NCBI GenBank assembly: GCA_030765645.1
Contig: JAVCCE010000061.1
Coordinates: 1-34,960, forward strand
Length of the DNA: 34,960 bases
From: Candidatus Hinthialibacter antarcticus
Lineage (GTDB): Bacteria; Hinthialibacterota; Hinthialibacteria; Hinthialibacterales; Hinthialibacteraceae
Direction of reading: 5' to 3'
Under the pieces are notes generated by a model, which was given only the letters and a program-made list of their open reading frames with translations, did no database searches and was not told where the DNA came from. This document shows positions 15,528-24,228 of this stretch, in pieces (the first letter of the stretch is position 1; every line of letters starts with the position of its first letter). The position numbers and the translations under genes are program-made.

Positions 15528-16211
15528 TTACGCCCCGATTGATGCAATGATGTAGGGTGCATTTTCGGGCGGTTTTTCTTTATATTGTTGAAGGAGCGCC
15601 GCGCTGGTCTCATCCATTTCTGCAATGGAAACTTCAACGCTCAACAGAGGCAAGCCCGATTTTTTTGAAGACGCAGAGTCTCCCTCGGCGATGATATGTT
15701 CACCGAAATGGCCCAGAGTCTCCGCGTCTAAGCCGTCAACAATCTGTGGCCAGACGCCAAGCAATGACGGGGTAAAATGAACCGACGCCAATCGCTCCAT
15801 ATCAGCCATATAATGCAAAATTGAGCGCAACGCCTGCTGCGCTTCCTGCGAGTGGAATTCACAATCCTGCGTAAAATCCAACCGAATCAGCGGCGCGTTA
15901 ATGTAGGACGCAAGGTCGGTCCAACCGCCCGCCGCTGATATCTCAGCGCCAGCCTGGTCGGCGTCATGGCTAAGATAGAGCGGAAGATGAATGGCATAGG
16001 GTTGAATGCCCGCAGCGCCTCCCTTTTGCGCCCACTGATCGACAGCGTCGATGGACGGGTGGTCGCTTAGATTGCCCGGCGCCCCTGACCGTTTTGCGTT
16101 CCATTCAATCAGAACAGGCCCATCGCCTTGTCTATCATGCGTTGCAAACCAGTCGATACCACCGCCGTCGCTCCAACTCAAACTCGACAGGACGAGATTG
16201 CTAGACATCAT
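15528..16211 (-). CDS. Hypothetical protein, possibly a diverged TIM-barrel sugar-isomerase-like fold
   Basis: About 227 residues, no signal peptide, no membrane helix, and not recognised. The ATG at 16211 is preferred over a TTG just before it because GTGGAG lies five bases upstream; a second ATG follows directly. Alternating strand and helix segments, with AGGWTDLASYINAPLIRLDF and later a helix followed by ASVHFTPS, give a faint impression of xylose-isomerase-like barrels. No metal-binding set of residues can be pointed out. It is convergent with the glycosyltransferase gene and reads in the same direction as the STAS genes, about 80 bases beyond the end of the small STAS gene. Confidence 0.5.
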   Translation of the reverse strand: MMSSNLVLSSLSWSDGGGIDWFATHDRQGDGPVLIEWNAKRSGAPGNLSDHPSIDAVDQWAQKGGAAGIQPYAIHLPLYLSHDADQAGAEISAAGGWTDLASYINAPLIRLDFTQDCEFHSQEAQQALRSILHYMADMERLASVHFTPSLLGVWPQIVDGLDAETLGHFGEHIIAEGDSASSKKSGLPLLSVEVSIAEMDETSAALLQQYKEKPPENAPYIIASIGA

Positions 16212-16294
16212 CAAAACTCCACAGAGAGGGGCATTTTTTCATCAATCATCGCGTATTACGTTACAGCAGAGAACTTTTTGAAGATAGCCAATGA

Positions 16295-16606
16295 TTAACC
16301 AGAGCGCTTAAATTCAAACAAATGGCTGATCTTGATAATTTTTAACACAAACCGAAATGTTTCCGGCAAATCTCTTAAAATCACGCCGCCTTTGTTGGCG
16401 CGAATACTATTTCCAAACCGAATAAGAGGTTGGGTAATAGACAATGGAACCACATCCACCATTTTGAAATCCATGACGACGTACTTTTCGCCGCGCTTAA
16501 GCAGTTCGCGCAATTTGTCCTCAAATAGATTCACATCGTCCGATTCAATATCACCAGACAATGAAAGAAGACAGATGTTTTTTTGTTTTGCCTCAGCAAT
16601 CTGCAT
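16295..16606 (-). CDS. Small STAS-domain protein with altered phosphosite
   Basis: A 103-residue single-domain protein of the anti-sigma-factor-antagonist (STAS) type, expected to bind partner proteins in the cytoplasm. The fold signature is clear: an ICLLSLSGDIESDDVNLFED start, the KYVVMDFKMVDVV strand and a C-terminal helix. Where the family normally has Asp-Ser-Ser-Gly, this protein has Pro-Leu-Ser-Ile, so the usual phosphorylated serine is replaced by leucine. It may therefore not be switched by a RsbW-type kinase. The ATG overlaps the stop of the upstream gene (TAATG), which points to coupled translation and a shared job with the PilZ-STAS protein. Confidence 0.8.
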   Translation of the reverse strand: MQIAEAKQKNICLLSLSGDIESDDVNLFEDKLRELLKRGEKYVVMDFKMVDVVPLSITQPLIRFGNSIRANKGGVILRDLPETFRFVLKIIKISHLFEFKRSG

Positions 16607-17820
16607 TAGCCTTCGTCTCCAACCAACTGTTTTAATTCTTTCGTTAAGCGGTCGATTACGGCTTGAAACTCCCGGTCAGAGACCGGCTTGGTGAGATATT
16701 CTTTAACAGGCAATTTGAGCGCGGCGCGAACTAGCGGCTCTACTTTTTCCGGGCCGATCACAATCAGCCAGGGCGCACTCTCTAATTCGGGAAGTTCCTT
16801 TTCCGCAAATTTAGCCAAATCGTCGCAATGGTCTAATTCAAAGTCGAGGATAAATAGGCTCCAGGGTTTTTGCGGTAAATAAATGTTTGCGTCTTCGATA
16901 CGGGTTAGCGTCTCTGTTTTAAATCCGTGGTCTTGCAGCGGCAGCAACAAACGGTGAATCGCCGATAAATTTCGAGCAGCGACCAAAGCGGGGCCATGCG
17001 CGGATTTTGGCTCCAAATCTTGAATCGGTTTGACCGTCTCGGTTTTTTGCCCAAACGCAACCCCAAATGAATCTTCATCGACCACTTGGCTATCGCCATG
17101 ACTGCCGTCACTTTCAGGCGGTTCCATCGAAAGGTCGAGTTCTTCCGTTGCGTCAAATTGACGGGAAGTATTTAACAACAGAGGGGACACGCTTTCCTGA
17201 GCGGAAAACGTATTTTCGCCAACAAGGCAGGTCACATCAACGCCGTCGTTTTCGCATTCTTGCAAAGAAGCCCGCAGAATCGTCAGCACGGTTGTCGCCA
17301 TGCTTGTGACTTCGTGCAACGACACAATCAGTTCTTTCATCTTTTTAGAATGGGTTTTTAATACCGATTGGATTAACGCGCCGCTTTCAATATCAAGCCG
17401 CCCCATGACGCGCACCAAACCATAGTCATCCATAAACAAAGTCGTTAATGCAGCTTGTCCGCGAAACCATCGGCGAAATTCCGGGCGGGGGGTGTCGTCT
17501 TGCACGAACTGAATTCCAACACAATCGACTGACTCACGGCGAACAACTCTGCCGATCCGCATCAATGGATGTTCGCGTATTTGTTGAATATTGGTGATGT
17601 GCTTCGGGGTCTCTTCTTCCAGCAGCGGGACAATGTAGACCGTATCTTTCAGGCTAGGCAAACTATCGGTGCGCAGCAACATGCCCGATGCGCTTTCATT
17701 CAGAATCGACCCTTTATTAATAATTCGGATGCTAGATCGACACCAAACGCATGACTCATTGACAGCGCGTCTTTCTTCACGCTTTGGAGAAGATGACGCT
17801 GATTCAGACCGTTTCAGCAT
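16606..17820 (-). CDS. PilZ-STAS-pseudo-receiver signalling protein
   Basis: A 404-residue cytoplasmic protein with three signalling modules. Residues about 10-115 form a PilZ domain with both cyclic-di-GMP motifs: RxxxR at 14-18 (RPattern R-E-E-R-R) and NxSxxG at 41-46 (NESASG). Residues about 130-200 look like a STAS domain (YGLVRVMGRLDIES..ELIVSLHEVTSMATT), again without the Asp-Ser phosphosite. Residues about 276-400 resemble a response-regulator receiver: Asp326 in LFILDFEL and Lys378 in EYLTKPV are present, but the acidic pair is Ala-Ala (ALVAARN) and the usual Thr/Ser is Gly. Phosphorylation is therefore doubtful. The start is ATG 17820, with AAGGA seven bases upstream; a TTG six bases earlier is too close to it. 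No output domain is present. It is coupled to the small STAS gene. Confidence 0.75.
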   Translation of the reverse strand: MLKRSESASSSPKREERRAVNESCVWCRSSIRIINKGSILNESASGMLLRTDSLPSLKDTVYIVPLLEEETPKHITNIQQIREHPLMRIGRVVRRESVDCVGIQFVQDDTPRPEFRRWFRGQAALTTLFMDDYGLVRVMGRLDIESGALIQSVLKTHSKKMKELIVSLHEVTSMATTVLTILRASLQECENDGVDVTCLVGENTFSAQESVSPLLLNTSRQFDATEELDLSMEPPESDGSHGDSQVVDEDSFGVAFGQKTETVKPIQDLEPKSAHGPALVAARNLSAIHRLLLPLQDHGFKTETLTRIEDANIYLPQKPWSLFILDFELDHCDDLAKFAEKELPELESAPWLIVIGPEKVEPLVRAALKLPVKEYLTKPVSDREFQAVIDRLTKELKQLVGDEG

Positions 17821-18073: not shown

Positions 18074-20563
18074 ATGGTGAAATTCCTCATTCAGATTCTG
18101 TGCGTAATCGGCCTGGGCCTTGTCCCGGCTGCTCAAGAAGAACCAGCCTCGCAGCTCTATTCTCAGGGCAACACCTCGTTCGCAACTGGCGACTATGTGG
18201 CTGCGAGTTATTATTTTCAGCGGCTGCACGACTCTGAGCAATGGGAGGCGTTCCCGCAGAAGGTCGATGTTCTTGGCAAATTAGGCATGGTCGAAGAAGG
18301 CCAAAGCCGCTTTGGCGCGGCCGCCTCTTGGTATCGCCAGGTCATTGTTGAGCTGGAGGCGAAAGCGCCACAGCAGATAGACGCCTTCGCCCAATATTAT
18401 GTACTGCGGTACGCAGAATGCCTGGAGCGGTCCGGCGCCTATCCACAAGCCGCGAAAATTCTCTGGGAACAATACGCCCGTTCAGAACCGGTCCTTCAAC
18501 CAACCATCCTTCACCGAATCTTACGGAATGCGCAATATAAGGAACTCGGCGAAGACGAACTGCGCGCCTTACGCGCAGAGGTCGAAGCCAACGGTTTGAG
18601 CAATCTGGGCTGGAACCTTGCCGACCTCTATCAACGCAACCAGCGTTTTAATGAAGCCTTTTCTTTGTATGAAGAACTATGGCCGAACGCCCCCGCTAAC
18701 GCCCGCAACCACCTTGATGCAATGATTACAACCTATCAGGCGGCGGACAAACTCGATGGTTGGCTCGATCAGTTACAACAAGCCGTCGATGAAGGCGTCA
18801 ATCCAAACCAATTCATTCTACTTGAGACAGAAATCCTTCGTTCGCTTGACCGGGGCGAAGAAGCCCTCAATCGCATGGAGACGGCGCTATCGAAATTGGC
18901 TGGCGTTCCAAACCTGAACGACATCGCATCGCTGGCAGGCAAAGCCCCATCCTCGCTCATTCAACACTGGCTCGAGCTGGTGCAGTTATACCGTGGAGAA
19001 GCCGACGCGCTCGTCCTGCTGCAAACCTGGGTCAATAACCAGCCCAACGACATTCTCCTACGCGGCAAGTTAGCCGAATGGACGGCAAACGCGGGCAAAC
19101 TAGATGAAGCGGGCGAACTCTGGCTTTCATGGGCGCGCGACCGCGATTCCGACTCTGCCAGCATTCTGCTCGCCGCAGAAAATCTCATTGAACTAGGCGC
19201 CAATGACGCGGCCCGGCAATTGCTCGCGGAACAACAAGCCAATCTTGACCCGAAATTCGCCATGCGCTTCGGACAACTGGCGATGCGGGTTAACCAATTT
19301 CAACAAGCGATCGACGCGTTTAACACGGCTACCGTCAAAGTGCAAACTCCCGCAATTGTAATTTCCGACGCGGTATTGACCTATGCGGATTCGGCGCCGG
19401 ATGCCGACGCATTGTTTGGCGCACTGATTGGCAGCGTTTCGGGCGAACCGTTCAGCGCCCTCCCCGCCTGGTCGCGAACCGCAGTGCAAGAACTGGGCTT
19501 CCGCCGAAACCGCATGAATACCCTGCGGGACATGGCGCTCGCGGAACCGTCAGGCGCCTGGCGCATCGAACTGGCCCGCGCCGCCTCCCAACAAGGAGAA
19601 CAAGACTGGGCGCTTGAACTTCTCGACCAAATTGCCGACGACAGCCCGTATCGGAATACGGCAAAACGAGAAAAAGCCCTGCTATTAGGAAATTCCATTC
19701 TCGTTCCGCGAAAAGTTGAAGCAGTCCAACTCATGCAGTCATCCCTCGAAGCGGTCTTATCGGCGACCAGCGAAATTCCTTTGACGCACATCATGGTCGA
19801 GCGGATGCTTACTTACAGTGAATACAGCCTCGACGCTTTCTTGCCGAACGATGCCTTGCGGGCCATCGTGCGCGTTGAATCCGCATCGAACGAACTCGCG
19901 CAGCCAATGCCCCCAATCAATCAGGAGCGGCTACGGTTTTTACGCGCCCGCGCCATGATGGAACTCGGCTCTTGGACGCGCGCATTGGAAATGTATCAGA
20001 CAATCACGCTGCCACCGTATTCTACCGACGCCCGGTTTTATGAAGCGCTGATTTTTCTTGGGCTGGAACAGACCGAAGAAGCCAAGGCCGCAATGCAAGA
20101 GTTGCTCGACCAACCCGAACACTGGCGAAGAGCGAATGATGCGCTGGCGTATTTGACCGCGTTGGAACCTCTCGTCGGCGAGCCGCTCGAATGGCTGTGT
20201 AAAGCGCAACTGTTTGAACTCCAGGGCCGCTTGATGGAAGCTGCGCCGTTTTACCGCCAGATCGCCGTTGCGCAATACGGAGAAGACACCGAAGAATGGG
20301 CGCGCTACGTCATTGGCGACTTGGAACGCATTTCAGGGCAGTGGTCAGCCGCGCGCCAGGAATGGGAGCGGTTGGCGCTGGATGTTGATCATCCTGTAAT
20401 TCATGCCATGATTCGCTGGGAGCTGTGGCGCGCCGCCGTCGCTGATGACGCCGTTGCGGCAGCGACAGGGTTCCAAAATTTATTGATGGATTTTCCTGAC
20501 AGCCTGGCTGCTGATTTGGCCCGGCTCGAATTTCAAAAGCGCAGTCAATCTAATAATCCGTAA
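18074..20563 (+). CDS. Secreted TPR-repeat protein
   Basis: An 829-residue protein, mostly helical hairpins of tetratricopeptide type, after a signal peptide of about 20 residues (MVKFLIQILCVIGLGLVPAA). Repeats are visible along the whole length, for example around residues 26-55 (YSQGNTSFATGDYVAASYYF), in WNLADLYQRNQRFNEAFSLYEELW, and near the C-terminus in LFELQGRLMEAAPFYRQIA. Such proteins usually scaffold envelope complexes. No enzyme domain is seen. AAGGGA lies 11 bases upstream of the start, and an AAAGCC/GGCTTT inverted repeat lies about 25 bases before that. Two more genes follow at 21-22 base spacing, so it likely heads a three-gene operon ending in a transcriptional regulator. Confidence 0.75.
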   Translation: MVKFLIQILCVIGLGLVPAAQEEPASQLYSQGNTSFATGDYVAASYYFQRLHDSEQWEAFPQKVDVLGKLGMVEEGQSRFGAAASWYRQVIVELEAKAPQQIDAFAQYYVLRYAECLERSGAYPQAAKILWEQYARSEPVLQPTILHRILRNAQYKELGEDELRALRAEVEANGLSNLGWNLADLYQRNQRFNEAFSLYEELWPNAPANARNHLDAMITTYQAADKLDGWLDQLQQAVDEGVNPNQFILLETEILRSLDRGEEALNRMETALSKLAGVPNLNDIASLAGKAPSSLIQHWLELVQLYRGEADALVLLQTWVNNQPNDILLRGKLAEWTANAGKLDEAGELWLSWARDRDSDSASILLAAENLIELGANDAARQLLAEQQANLDPKFAMRFGQLAMRVNQFQQAIDAFNTATVKVQTPAIVISDAVLTYADSAPDADALFGALIGSVSGEPFSALPAWSRTAVQELGFRRNRMNTLRDMALAEPSGAWRIELARAASQQGEQDWALELLDQIADDSPYRNTAKREKALLLGNSILVPRKVEAVQLMQSSLEAVLSATSEIPLTHIMVERMLTYSEYSLDAFLPNDALRAIVRVESASNELAQPMPPINQERLRFLRARAMMELGSWTRALEMYQTITLPPYSTDARFYEALIFLGLEQTEEAKAAMQELLDQPEHWRRANDALAYLTALEPLVGEPLEWLCKAQLFELQGRLMEAAPFYRQIAVAQYGEDTEEWARYVIGDLERISGQWSAARQEWERLALDVDHPVIHAMIRWELWRAAVADDAVAAATGFQNLLMDFPDSLAADLARLEFQKRSQSNNP

Positions 20564-20584
20564 GGAGGCATTTAAGCGGAAGCC

Positions 20585-21148
20585 ATGCAAGCAAACGGTG
20601 AATCTATGCCTTTACCAACGGTCGAATCGCCTTCGATCAAGCCACACGTCAATCAAGATGAAACTTCACGCAAGCTGAGCGTCTGGGAAGTGATTGCTCT
20701 CACGCTGGCCTTTGTGCTCATTGTTTTTGGCGCAATCCCCAATTTTTTTGGCGCATTAAGCGACCTGCGCGGAGAAGAATGCAGCCGTCGGCTTACCCTG
20801 GCAGGCAATTGTTTACAGAACCTCGCGAACAAAAACGACACCAAACCCGGCGAGCAAATTTGCCAATTGTTTGACCTAAACCAGTTGCTCGAAAACACCC
20901 AACGCGGCGGCTCATTGATTAGCAGTTCCGGCCGCTACATCGTGTTTTATAAAATTGGGGTCGAACCAGATTGCGCGGACGTCGGTAATCATCAAGTCAC
21001 GCTCACATTGGGCGCTGATGGAAAAATCGTCCCGCCGGTTTGTTCACTGGCGCAAGGCGAAGACGGCGAAAAATATAGAAGCAAAGGTCTCCATGTTTGC
21101 GACATCGAGCATGTGACGGGCGACTTGGGTTTAACCCCATCGAACTAA
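20585..21148 (+). CDS. Membrane-anchored cysteine-rich protein of unknown function
   Basis: A 187-residue protein not recognised as any family. A cytoplasmic-looking N-terminus is followed by one transmembrane helix (about 33-55, VIALTLAFVLIVFGAIPNFF) and an exported domain of about 130 residues. That domain carries six cysteines (in EECSRR, GNCLQN, QICQLF, PDCADV, PVCSLA and HVCDIE), enough for three disulfides if it is periplasmic. The segment SLISSSGRYIVFYKIG and a following strand-rich stretch suggest a beta fold. A strong AAGGAGG lies 16 bases before the first ATG, farther than usual; an in-frame stop in between rules out an earlier start, and a second ATG at 20606 is possible. It sits between the TPR gene and the NtrC-like gene. 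Confidence 0.65.
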   Translation: MQANGESMPLPTVESPSIKPHVNQDETSRKLSVWEVIALTLAFVLIVFGAIPNFFGALSDLRGEECSRRLTLAGNCLQNLANKNDTKPGEQICQLFDLNQLLENTQRGGSLISSSGRYIVFYKIGVEPDCADVGNHQVTLTLGADGKIVPPVCSLAQGEDGEKYRSKGLHVCDIEHVTGDLGLTPSN

Positions 21149-21170
21149 ACCACCAAGAGAGAGATGGTTG

Positions 21171-22583
21171 ATGGCTACAATTCTCATCGCGGAAGACGAA
21201 GCCAAAATGCGCAAGATTCTCGCATTGGCTTTATCAGAAGATGGCCATGAGATTCTCGAAGCGCAAAACGCTGAGGAAGCCGCCTCTACCATACGCACCC
21301 ACTCCGTCAGCCTTGTCATCAGCGATTTGCGAATGCCGGGCGGCGGCGGCATGGCGCTGCTGAAATCCGTTCAGGAGATCAACCACTACATCCCGGTCAT
21401 TATTCTCACGGCGTACGGCACTATTGAAAACGCCGTCGATGCGCTCAAAAACGGCGCCGTCGATTACTTGCTCAAACCCTGCGACCTGGATGAAATCAAA
21501 CTCGCCGTTGAAAAAGCGCTGCAAATTCAACAACTCGAATTAGAAAACATATACCTGCGCAACGAGATATCAGACCACTTTGGCGATGATGTCATCATTT
21601 CGCGCTCCGAGTCAATGAAACGGGTCACCGACCTCGTAAAGCGCGTGTCCCAAGGCGACGGCATCGTCTTGATTTCAGGCGAAAGCGGTTGCGGCAAAGA
21701 AATGATCGCCCGCAGCATCCACCTGCAAAGCGCCCGCCGCGAAAAAGCGTTTGTTACAGTGAAATGCGCTGGAATCCCGGCAGATTTGCTCGAAATTGAA
21801 CTGTTTGGGCGCGTACGGAATCTACACGGCGGCCCAACCGGCCCGCTGTCGGGCAAATTTGAACTCGCCAACAGCGGCACCCTCTTTTTAGATGAAGTGG
21901 GAGAATTGCCGTCCCGCATTCAAGGTAAAATCCTACGGACGCTGAGCGACAGCACTATTGAACCCGTTGGCGGCGTTCGTGAAAAGAAAGTCGACGTTCG
22001 AATCATTGCCGCAACCCGTCACGATCTCGAAGAGCGCGTCCAAAACGAAATGTTCCGTTCCGAACTCTATTACCGGCTTAATGTACTGCCGATCCGCTTG
22101 CCGCCGCTACGTGAACGAACGGAAGATATCCCGCCGTTGATTGAACATTACCTCAACATGAAAACGTCGGGTAAGCCGCCATTATCTTTCACACAGAGTG
22201 ATATGAACGAGATGGTGAAATATTCATGGCCCGGAAACGTGCGTGAATTACAAAACCTTGTCGAGCGCGCCTTGGTGTTGGGTTCAACCAGCGCAAAAGA
22301 ACTGTTGCCGCCATCGCAACTGGCGCAGGAGACGGCGGATTCTCTTCCCCTTCAGGACCAGGGGCTATTAGAGCAATCCTATAAAGAGGCGAAAAAATTT
22401 GTCCTTGAGCGTTTTGAACGCGCCTATTTTTCAAATGTATTGAAAAAGACAAACGGCAATGTGTCACGCGCCGCAAAAATGGCTGACGTGCACCGTAAAA
22501 ACCTGCATGTCAAAATTTCTGAACTCGGCCTTGATCCCCACAAACTCTCTCAAACTGATGATTCGCCTCATTCCGATTCCTGA
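21171..22583 (+). CDS. NtrC-family response regulator with degenerate GAFTGA loop
   Basis: A 470-residue cytoplasmic regulator. The receiver domain (1-120) is complete: Glu8/Asp9, phosphoacceptor Asp52 (VISDLRMP), Thr80 and Lys102. The AAA+ domain (about 140-375) has Walker A GESGCGKE (170-177), Walker B GTLFLDE (236-242) and an arginine-finger region RSELYYRLNV. A Fis-type helix-turn-helix ends the protein (about 405-455, NGNVSRAAKMADVHRKNLH). The sigma-54-contacting loop, normally GAFTGA after ELFG, here reads NLHGGP (217-222) at unchanged length. ATPase activity is likely, but contact with sigma-54 is doubtful. The start is ATG 21171, not the TTG one codon earlier, because GAGAGAG lies seven bases upstream. 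No histidine kinase gene is nearby. Confidence 0.88.
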   Translation: MATILIAEDEAKMRKILALALSEDGHEILEAQNAEEAASTIRTHSVSLVISDLRMPGGGGMALLKSVQEINHYIPVIILTAYGTIENAVDALKNGAVDYLLKPCDLDEIKLAVEKALQIQQLELENIYLRNEISDHFGDDVIISRSESMKRVTDLVKRVSQGDGIVLISGESGCGKEMIARSIHLQSARREKAFVTVKCAGIPADLLEIELFGRVRNLHGGPTGPLSGKFELANSGTLFLDEVGELPSRIQGKILRTLSDSTIEPVGGVREKKVDVRIIAATRHDLEERVQNEMFRSELYYRLNVLPIRLPPLRERTEDIPPLIEHYLNMKTSGKPPLSFTQSDMNEMVKYSWPGNVRELQNLVERALVLGSTSAKELLPPSQLAQETADSLPLQDQGLLEQSYKEAKKFVLERFERAYFSNVLKKTNGNVSRAAKMADVHRKNLHVKISELGLDPHKLSQTDDSPHSDS

Positions 22584-23598: not shown

Positions 23599-24228
23599 AT
23601 GAAAAAAGGATTTACATTAATTGAGTTGCTTATTGTTGTAGCCATTATCGGAATCTTAGCTGCGATTGCAGTTCCAAATTTTTTGAATGCTCAGATTAAA
23701 GCCAAAGTCGCGCGTACGCAATCCGACATGCGCTCCGTCGCAACCTCCATCGAAACCTTTCGGTTAGACAAAGGCGTCTTATTGCTGGATTTTTGGGATG
23801 ATGACAACGATTGGGCGAAAGACCGCTGGAGAGACAATTTTGGCGGCGTCGGTCCCCAGCCTCCATATACAACATTCGAACAACCGTTTTACCCACTCAC
23901 GTCTCCAGTTGCGTACATGAGTTCGGTTCCTCAAGATCCGTTCATCGCCCGTTCAGAAGACGTTGGGTTTGGCGCGAATGAAATGGGGCGCAGTTACATT
24001 TATTTCGATAACGACCCTCAAGGCGGCGCGGAAAACTTTGGAATCGATTTATATAAAGCGGCAAATGCCCACCAATATAACTTGAATCCTCTGAAACGCG
24101 GTGAATTTGCACTCATCAGCATCGGCCCGGATGGCTTCATCGGCGTCAACGATCAGGGTGCGTTGCGGGGTTTGCCCTATGACGCTTCCAATGGCGTAAT
24201 CAGTTCTGGAGATGTTGTACGTCGATAA
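23599..24228 (+). CDS. Type II pseudopilin (prepilin N-terminal methylation domain), locus 1
   Basis: A 209-residue prepilin-like protein. The leader MKKG is cut before FTLIELLIVVAIIGILAA, with Glu at mature position 5, the classic prepilin-peptidase and methylation signal; the hydrophobic helix continues to about residue 28. The globular part (DMRSVATSIETFRLDKG, later DPFIARSED and ISIGPDGFIGV) resembles GspG-type major pseudopilins, but no secretion ATPase, secretin or peptidase gene is near. AGGAGA lies about six bases before the ATG. It is monocistronic, followed by the strong terminator at 24248-24284, and divergent from the lipoprotein gene. Confidence 0.88.
   Translation: MKKGFTLIELLIVVAIIGILAAIAVPNFLNAQIKAKVARTQSDMRSVATSIETFRLDKGVLLLDFWDDDNDWAKDRWRDNFGGVGPQPPYTTFEQPFYPLTSPVAYMSSVPQDPFIARSEDVGFGANEMGRSYIYFDNDPQGGAENFGIDLYKAANAHQYNLNPLKRGEFALISIGPDGFIGVNDQGALRGLPYDASNGVISSGDVVRR

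Follow-up and report, generated by a model that had tools for sequence, protein, structure and literature searches.

A PilZ-STAS-pseudo-receiver fusion paired with a lone STAS protein in Candidatus Hinthialibacter antarcticus, a candidate cyclic-di-GMP adaptor without classical serine phosphosites

Candidatus Hinthialibacter antarcticus encodes a fusion of a PilZ domain, a STAS domain and a pseudo-receiver, and the fusion gene overlaps a gene for a lone STAS protein. Both cyclic-di-GMP motifs of the PilZ domain are intact, classical phosphorylation sites have been lost from the STAS domains and the receiver, the gene pair is conserved in relatives, and a paralogous clade shows the reciprocal decay. 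We tentatively propose that the fusion is a cytoplasmic cyclic-di-GMP-reading adaptor whose STAS domain reports by direct binding, without classical serine phosphorylation.

The window analyzed here comprises 34,960 nucleotides and is one entire contig of a 5.15-Mb draft genome. The fusion gene (positions 16606-17820, minus strand) encodes 404 amino acids and starts with ATG, with an AAGGA about 8 nt upstream. It is followed on the same strand by the gene of the lone STAS protein (103 aa, 16295-16606) and by a third gene of about 228 codons (15528-16214). Open reading frames, strand and the TAATG stop/start overlap of the first two genes (16604-16608, minus strand; junction GGCTAATGCAG) are as the first-pass annotation had described them.

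The same annotation had recognized three fused modules in the larger protein. This was borne out by an AlphaFold2 model, built from four sequences, and by Foldseek. From the N- to the C-terminus the model shows a confident beta-barrel, a STAS-type alternation, a disordered linker (residues 209-273) and a (beta-alpha)5 domain. Foldseek matched it to receivers, to the PilZ domain 4i86 (E 1.4e-4) and to the STAS proteins TM1442 and RsbV. The middle part is therefore STAS (residues 125-208; 17197-17448, minus strand) and the C-terminal part receiver-like (residues 276-400; 16621-16995, minus strand). Pfam gave E-values of 3.4e-6 for the receiver and 0.0014 for the STAS domain (PF01740), both below the Pfam cut-offs, and the STAS domain also aligned to SpoIIAA and RsbV by HMMER. 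The PilZ domain (residues 14-110; 17491-17781, minus strand) was not detected by Pfam in the window fusion, and a PilZ-only profile run against solved structures returned no PilZ match. The cut-off of PF07238 was passed by the ortholog from genome G005 only (23.3 versus 22.5 bits). The PilZ assignment is thus based on the fold model, in which the barrel strands reach pLDDT values of about 73-92, on the Foldseek match to 4i86 and on this one ortholog. The lone protein carries STAS fold and signature (PF01740, E 6.8e-8; HMMER alignment to TM1442 and SpoIIAA).

Both cyclic-di-GMP motifs are intact in the window fusion, as had been claimed. The candidate RxxxR motif R14-E-E-R-R18 (17767-17781, minus strand) immediately precedes strand 1, and N41-E-S-A-S-G46 (17683-17700, minus strand), the (D/N)xSxxG motif, is located at the end of strand 2. 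These are the positions at which the two motifs stand in PilZ domains that bind cyclic-di-GMP (PMC12943098). Four of the five orthologs of the fusion, which form clade I of the family described below, have both motifs. (D/N)xSxxG is kept in all five and REER is invariant, while R18 is replaced by Ala in G005 (RxxxA). When the same 120 residues were shuffled, both motifs occurred at plausible spacing in 0.8% of the shuffles and (D/N)xSxxG alone in 3.5%; a stronger case for the motifs comes from their conservation in relatives. PilZ is also the most conserved domain within clade I, with a mean pairwise identity of 41% (STAS 31%, receiver 31%) and 25 invariant columns of 99 (STAS 6 of 84, receiver 13 of 125). 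Several proteins of the genome match GGDEF. In the one that was inspected GGEEF is intact, and cyclic-di-GMP is therefore a plausible ligand. A GGDEF gene at G000:C76:36557-37020 is apparently split, with an in-frame TAG in one piece and the remaining domain matching separately.

For the receiver, the retention of D326 and K378 had been noted correctly, and both residues are invariant in the orthologs. The acidic pair and the Thr are gone, as also stated, but their exact assignment to Ala-Ala and G356 was off by one: in HMMER and MAFFT alignments the acidic pair corresponds to A282-R283 and the Thr to I355. Neither register leaves an acidic pair or a Ser/Thr in the window receiver, and in all five clade I orthologs only Asp and Lys remain of the active site. 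The domain is consequently a pseudo-receiver as defined in PMC12632262, where the activation mode of pseudo-receivers is called a mystery. Judged by these residues, the proposal that the clade I receiver is dead for phosphorylation is supported in five of five orthologs. The second position of the acidic pair (fusion 282-283) reads R, G, K, R and R in clade I (MAFFT) and is thus basic in four of the five; a basic residue here might substitute for the lost metal. The pseudo-receiver REC1 of the histidine kinase ShkA binds cyclic-di-GMP (PMC7010744), and by analogy the pseudo-receiver of the fusion could possibly bind the ligand itself.

In STAS-domain-only anti-sigma antagonists the phosphoserine is conserved and canonical, and serine phosphorylation is the normal STAS switch (PMC8256260). 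Both STAS copies of the window had been described as lacking this site. HMMER alignment confirmed Pro-Leu (P54-L55, within 16295-16606, minus strand) in place of Asp-Ser in the lone STAS protein. Neither copy has an Asp-Ser, but the fused domain retains Thr-Thr at the site: A175-T176-T177 (17290-17298, minus strand) aligns to Asp-Ser-Ser of SpoIIAA and to Asp-Ser-Thr of RsbV. A phosphorylatable Thr is therefore present in this genome. The exact position of the serine is T, A, T, N and R across the five clade I orthologs. The column of T177, beside the classical site, holds Thr in four of five clade I and three of four clade II proteins and Ala in G005; judged from the alignment, T177 might be phosphorylated or might act as a helix cap. 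The Asp-Ser phosphosite occurs in none of 18 fused and none of five lone STAS domains. Another STAS domain of the same genome (L002) keeps DS, and HATPase_c_2 matches number 14 in the genome, so that classical switching may well operate there via other proteins.

Absence of the pairing from relatives had been set beforehand as evidence against a functional link. In the phylum sample of 14 species, fusion and lone STAS protein were found paired in five of the six genera of the family. The trio with the third gene likewise occurs in five of six genera with constant order and strand, and an adjacent lone STAS ortholog is present in four genera besides the one of the window. The fusions of the four relatives share 51, 28, 31 and 30% identity with that of the window. 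In the sixth genus (G003) neither a fusion of clade I nor a strong ortholog of the lone STAS protein was found, and the matching site adjoining the universal stress protein (USP) gene is without the trio. This draft is 91% complete; it includes the syntenic site, but absence elsewhere in it is uncertain. As G003 is without both, fusion and lone STAS appear to be kept or lost together. The third gene was found in all six genera, since a diverged copy stands alone elsewhere in G003, and it can thus persist without the other two. Its product has no Pfam match. The model (mean pLDDT 64.5, last quarter poorly modelled) matches xylose-isomerase-like TIM barrels (3tva, E 1.4e-4; TM about 0.4), and the protein is small, being shorter than these enzymes. 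From the model we would guess that the protein acts by binding and not as an enzyme. That the lone STAS protein arose by recent duplication of the fused domain is unsupported (hhalign probability 6.7%, no close kinship). A plasmid collection gave no match.

The operon contains no kinase, anti-sigma or sigma gene, and no RsbT-like gene was found in or beside it in five genera. On the plus strand an order-wide conserved block (18074-22583) encodes a TPR protein (829 aa), a protein of 187 aa for which a single membrane stretch is predicted close to the start, and an NtrC-type regulator. This block was rejected as a required partner, since both G003 and the sister family have it without the trio. 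A prepilin-type protein is encoded near the NtrC-type regulator (23599-24228, plus strand), and G002 has the same neighbourhood.

A PilZ-STAS profile was used to search 386 genomes, about 370 of them outside the phylum. It retrieved 18 fusion proteins, only from this family and its sister family; a 77-residue STAS-only match in G030 and a PilZ-only match in G000:C14 were left out as non-fusions. The proteins fall into three clean clades (supports 100/98, 99/98 and 97/98) in a tree that is unrooted, has long branches and does not fix the nearest relative of clade I. Among the genomes searched, all three clades are confined to this order. Clade II consists of PilZ-STAS-receiver proteins of about 350 aa (G000:C40, G002:C22, G003:C69, G004:C66) and clade III of PilZ-like-STAS proteins of about 230 aa. 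The clade III genes (L068-L073, from G001, G003, G005, G002, G004 and G000) lie near an RNase III-like gene, and in several cases a radical-SAM-like gene follows. All four clade II receivers have all five active-site residues (PF00072, E 1e-22 to 1e-29); both PilZ motifs are lost in three of the four proteins, and NxSxxG alone survives in the fourth. The clade II genes examined have no lone STAS gene beside them. Clades I and II are thus reciprocal: in the former the PilZ motifs were kept and the receiver is dead, in the latter the receiver is full and the PilZ domain mostly degenerate. With a single origin for each state, the tree offers one contrast and no repeated evolution; likewise, the five clade I orthologs come from one family and represent few independent events.

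In the mechanism we favour, cyclic-di-GMP would enter via the PilZ domain of the fusion and would alter the surface offered by the fused STAS domain. The lone STAS protein, coupled by its gene, would be the most likely binding partner. The C-terminal receiver would be no phospho-switch and would rather serve as a docking, packing or structural module. We infer here the binding of cyclic-di-GMP, the contact between fusion and lone STAS protein and any downstream target. The first-pass annotation had spoken of a binding-only partner switch. Signalling by binding, free of phosphorylation, fits the data, but 'partner switch' in the sense of sigma and anti-sigma factors goes beyond them and is unsupported, because the operon has no kinase, anti-sigma or sigma gene. 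The clade II proteins would be input-swapped paralogs, in which the same STAS core receives its signal through the intact receiver while PilZ has decayed. The wider scheme that follows, one STAS core with alternative inputs, namely cyclic-di-GMP with phosphorylation-free STAS-STAS binding in clade I and receiver phosphorylation in clade II, is rather doubtful.

Several other explanations have to be weighed. The PilZ domain may no longer bind cyclic-di-GMP; all three domains would then dock proteins, and the fusion would be a scaffold on which the lone STAS protein and the TIM-barrel protein assemble. RxxxR is indeed broken in G005, PilZ is barely visible to Pfam and other clades keep the same fold yet lose the motifs. 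However, at an overall identity of about 30%, both (D/N)xSxxG and REER have persisted, and they lie in the most conserved domain of the protein, so that we consider a mere scaffold rather unlikely. It is still less probable, yet conceivable, that the fusion resembles RsbR and the lone STAS protein RsbS, and that, before cyclic-di-GMP binds, a larger STAS complex keeps some client, perhaps a distant kinase, sequestered. A sensor-STAS gene followed by a lone STAS gene in one operon, as found in five genera, would suit such a stressosome-like arrangement, for which the 14 HATPase_c_2 matches would be possible clients; against it, the operon is without an RsbT-like gene, and RsbR and RsbS are switched via conserved Thr/Ser phosphorylation (PMC9237128), whose equivalent sites are unconserved here.

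Phosphorylation could also have shifted, either to T176/T177 of the fused STAS domain by a HATPase_c_2 kinase or to D326 by unusual chemistry. Thr at the T177 column in seven of nine clade I and II proteins, the several HATPase_c_2 kinases of the genome and the invariance of D326 and K378 are compatible with this. The exact phosphosite position, however, varies as T/A/T/N/R in clade I, G005 has Ala for T177, and loss of the acidic pair removes the Mg2+ site for Asp phosphorylation; we regard such a shift as improbable. Finally, loss of classical key residues in two domains and absence of the entire trio from its G003 site would be expected of a decaying, lineage-specific paralog without defined function. 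This is very improbable in view of the open frames, the operon and the dozens of invariant residues kept in five genera.

PilZ domains, STAS domains and pseudo-receivers are individually known. A PilZ-STAS fusion was not found in the open-access full-text literature. If the wider scheme of one STAS core with alternative inputs is true, this would be, judging from the literature searched, the first STAS switch that is driven by cyclic-di-GMP and free of phosphorylation, and clades I and II would be a natural pair for learning the role of a pseudo-receiver. A dead-receiver fusion and a live-receiver paralog in the same genome make STAS switching and pseudo-receiver activation testable with small soluble proteins.

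With the PilZ adaptors YcgR and BcsA-type PilZ the fusion shares the six-stranded barrel, with RxxxR preceding strand 1 and (D/N)xSxxG following strand 2. Its output is a STAS and a receiver-like domain instead of YcgR-N or a synthase, and its ligand binding is predicted. The lone STAS protein has the fold and sequence signature of SpoIIAA, RsbV and TM1442. In contrast to these, whose phosphoserine is conserved, all five lone STAS orthologs lack it, and no kinase/anti-sigma or sigma gene adjoins. The stressosome pair RsbR-RsbS is similar in that a sensor-STAS and a lone STAS protein are encoded together, but here RsbT is missing, the phosphosites are unconserved, the PilZ sensor is N-terminal and a receiver is C-terminal. 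REC1 of ShkA is, like the pseudo-receiver of the fusion, a receiver fold without active-site residues in a cyclic-di-GMP-linked protein (PMC7010744); it resides in a histidine kinase, whereas the likely ligand site of the fusion is a separate PilZ domain. Closest in architecture is clade II, with the same PilZ-STAS-receiver order and a STAS domain without phosphosite, which differs by its complete receiver site and its degenerate PilZ motifs.
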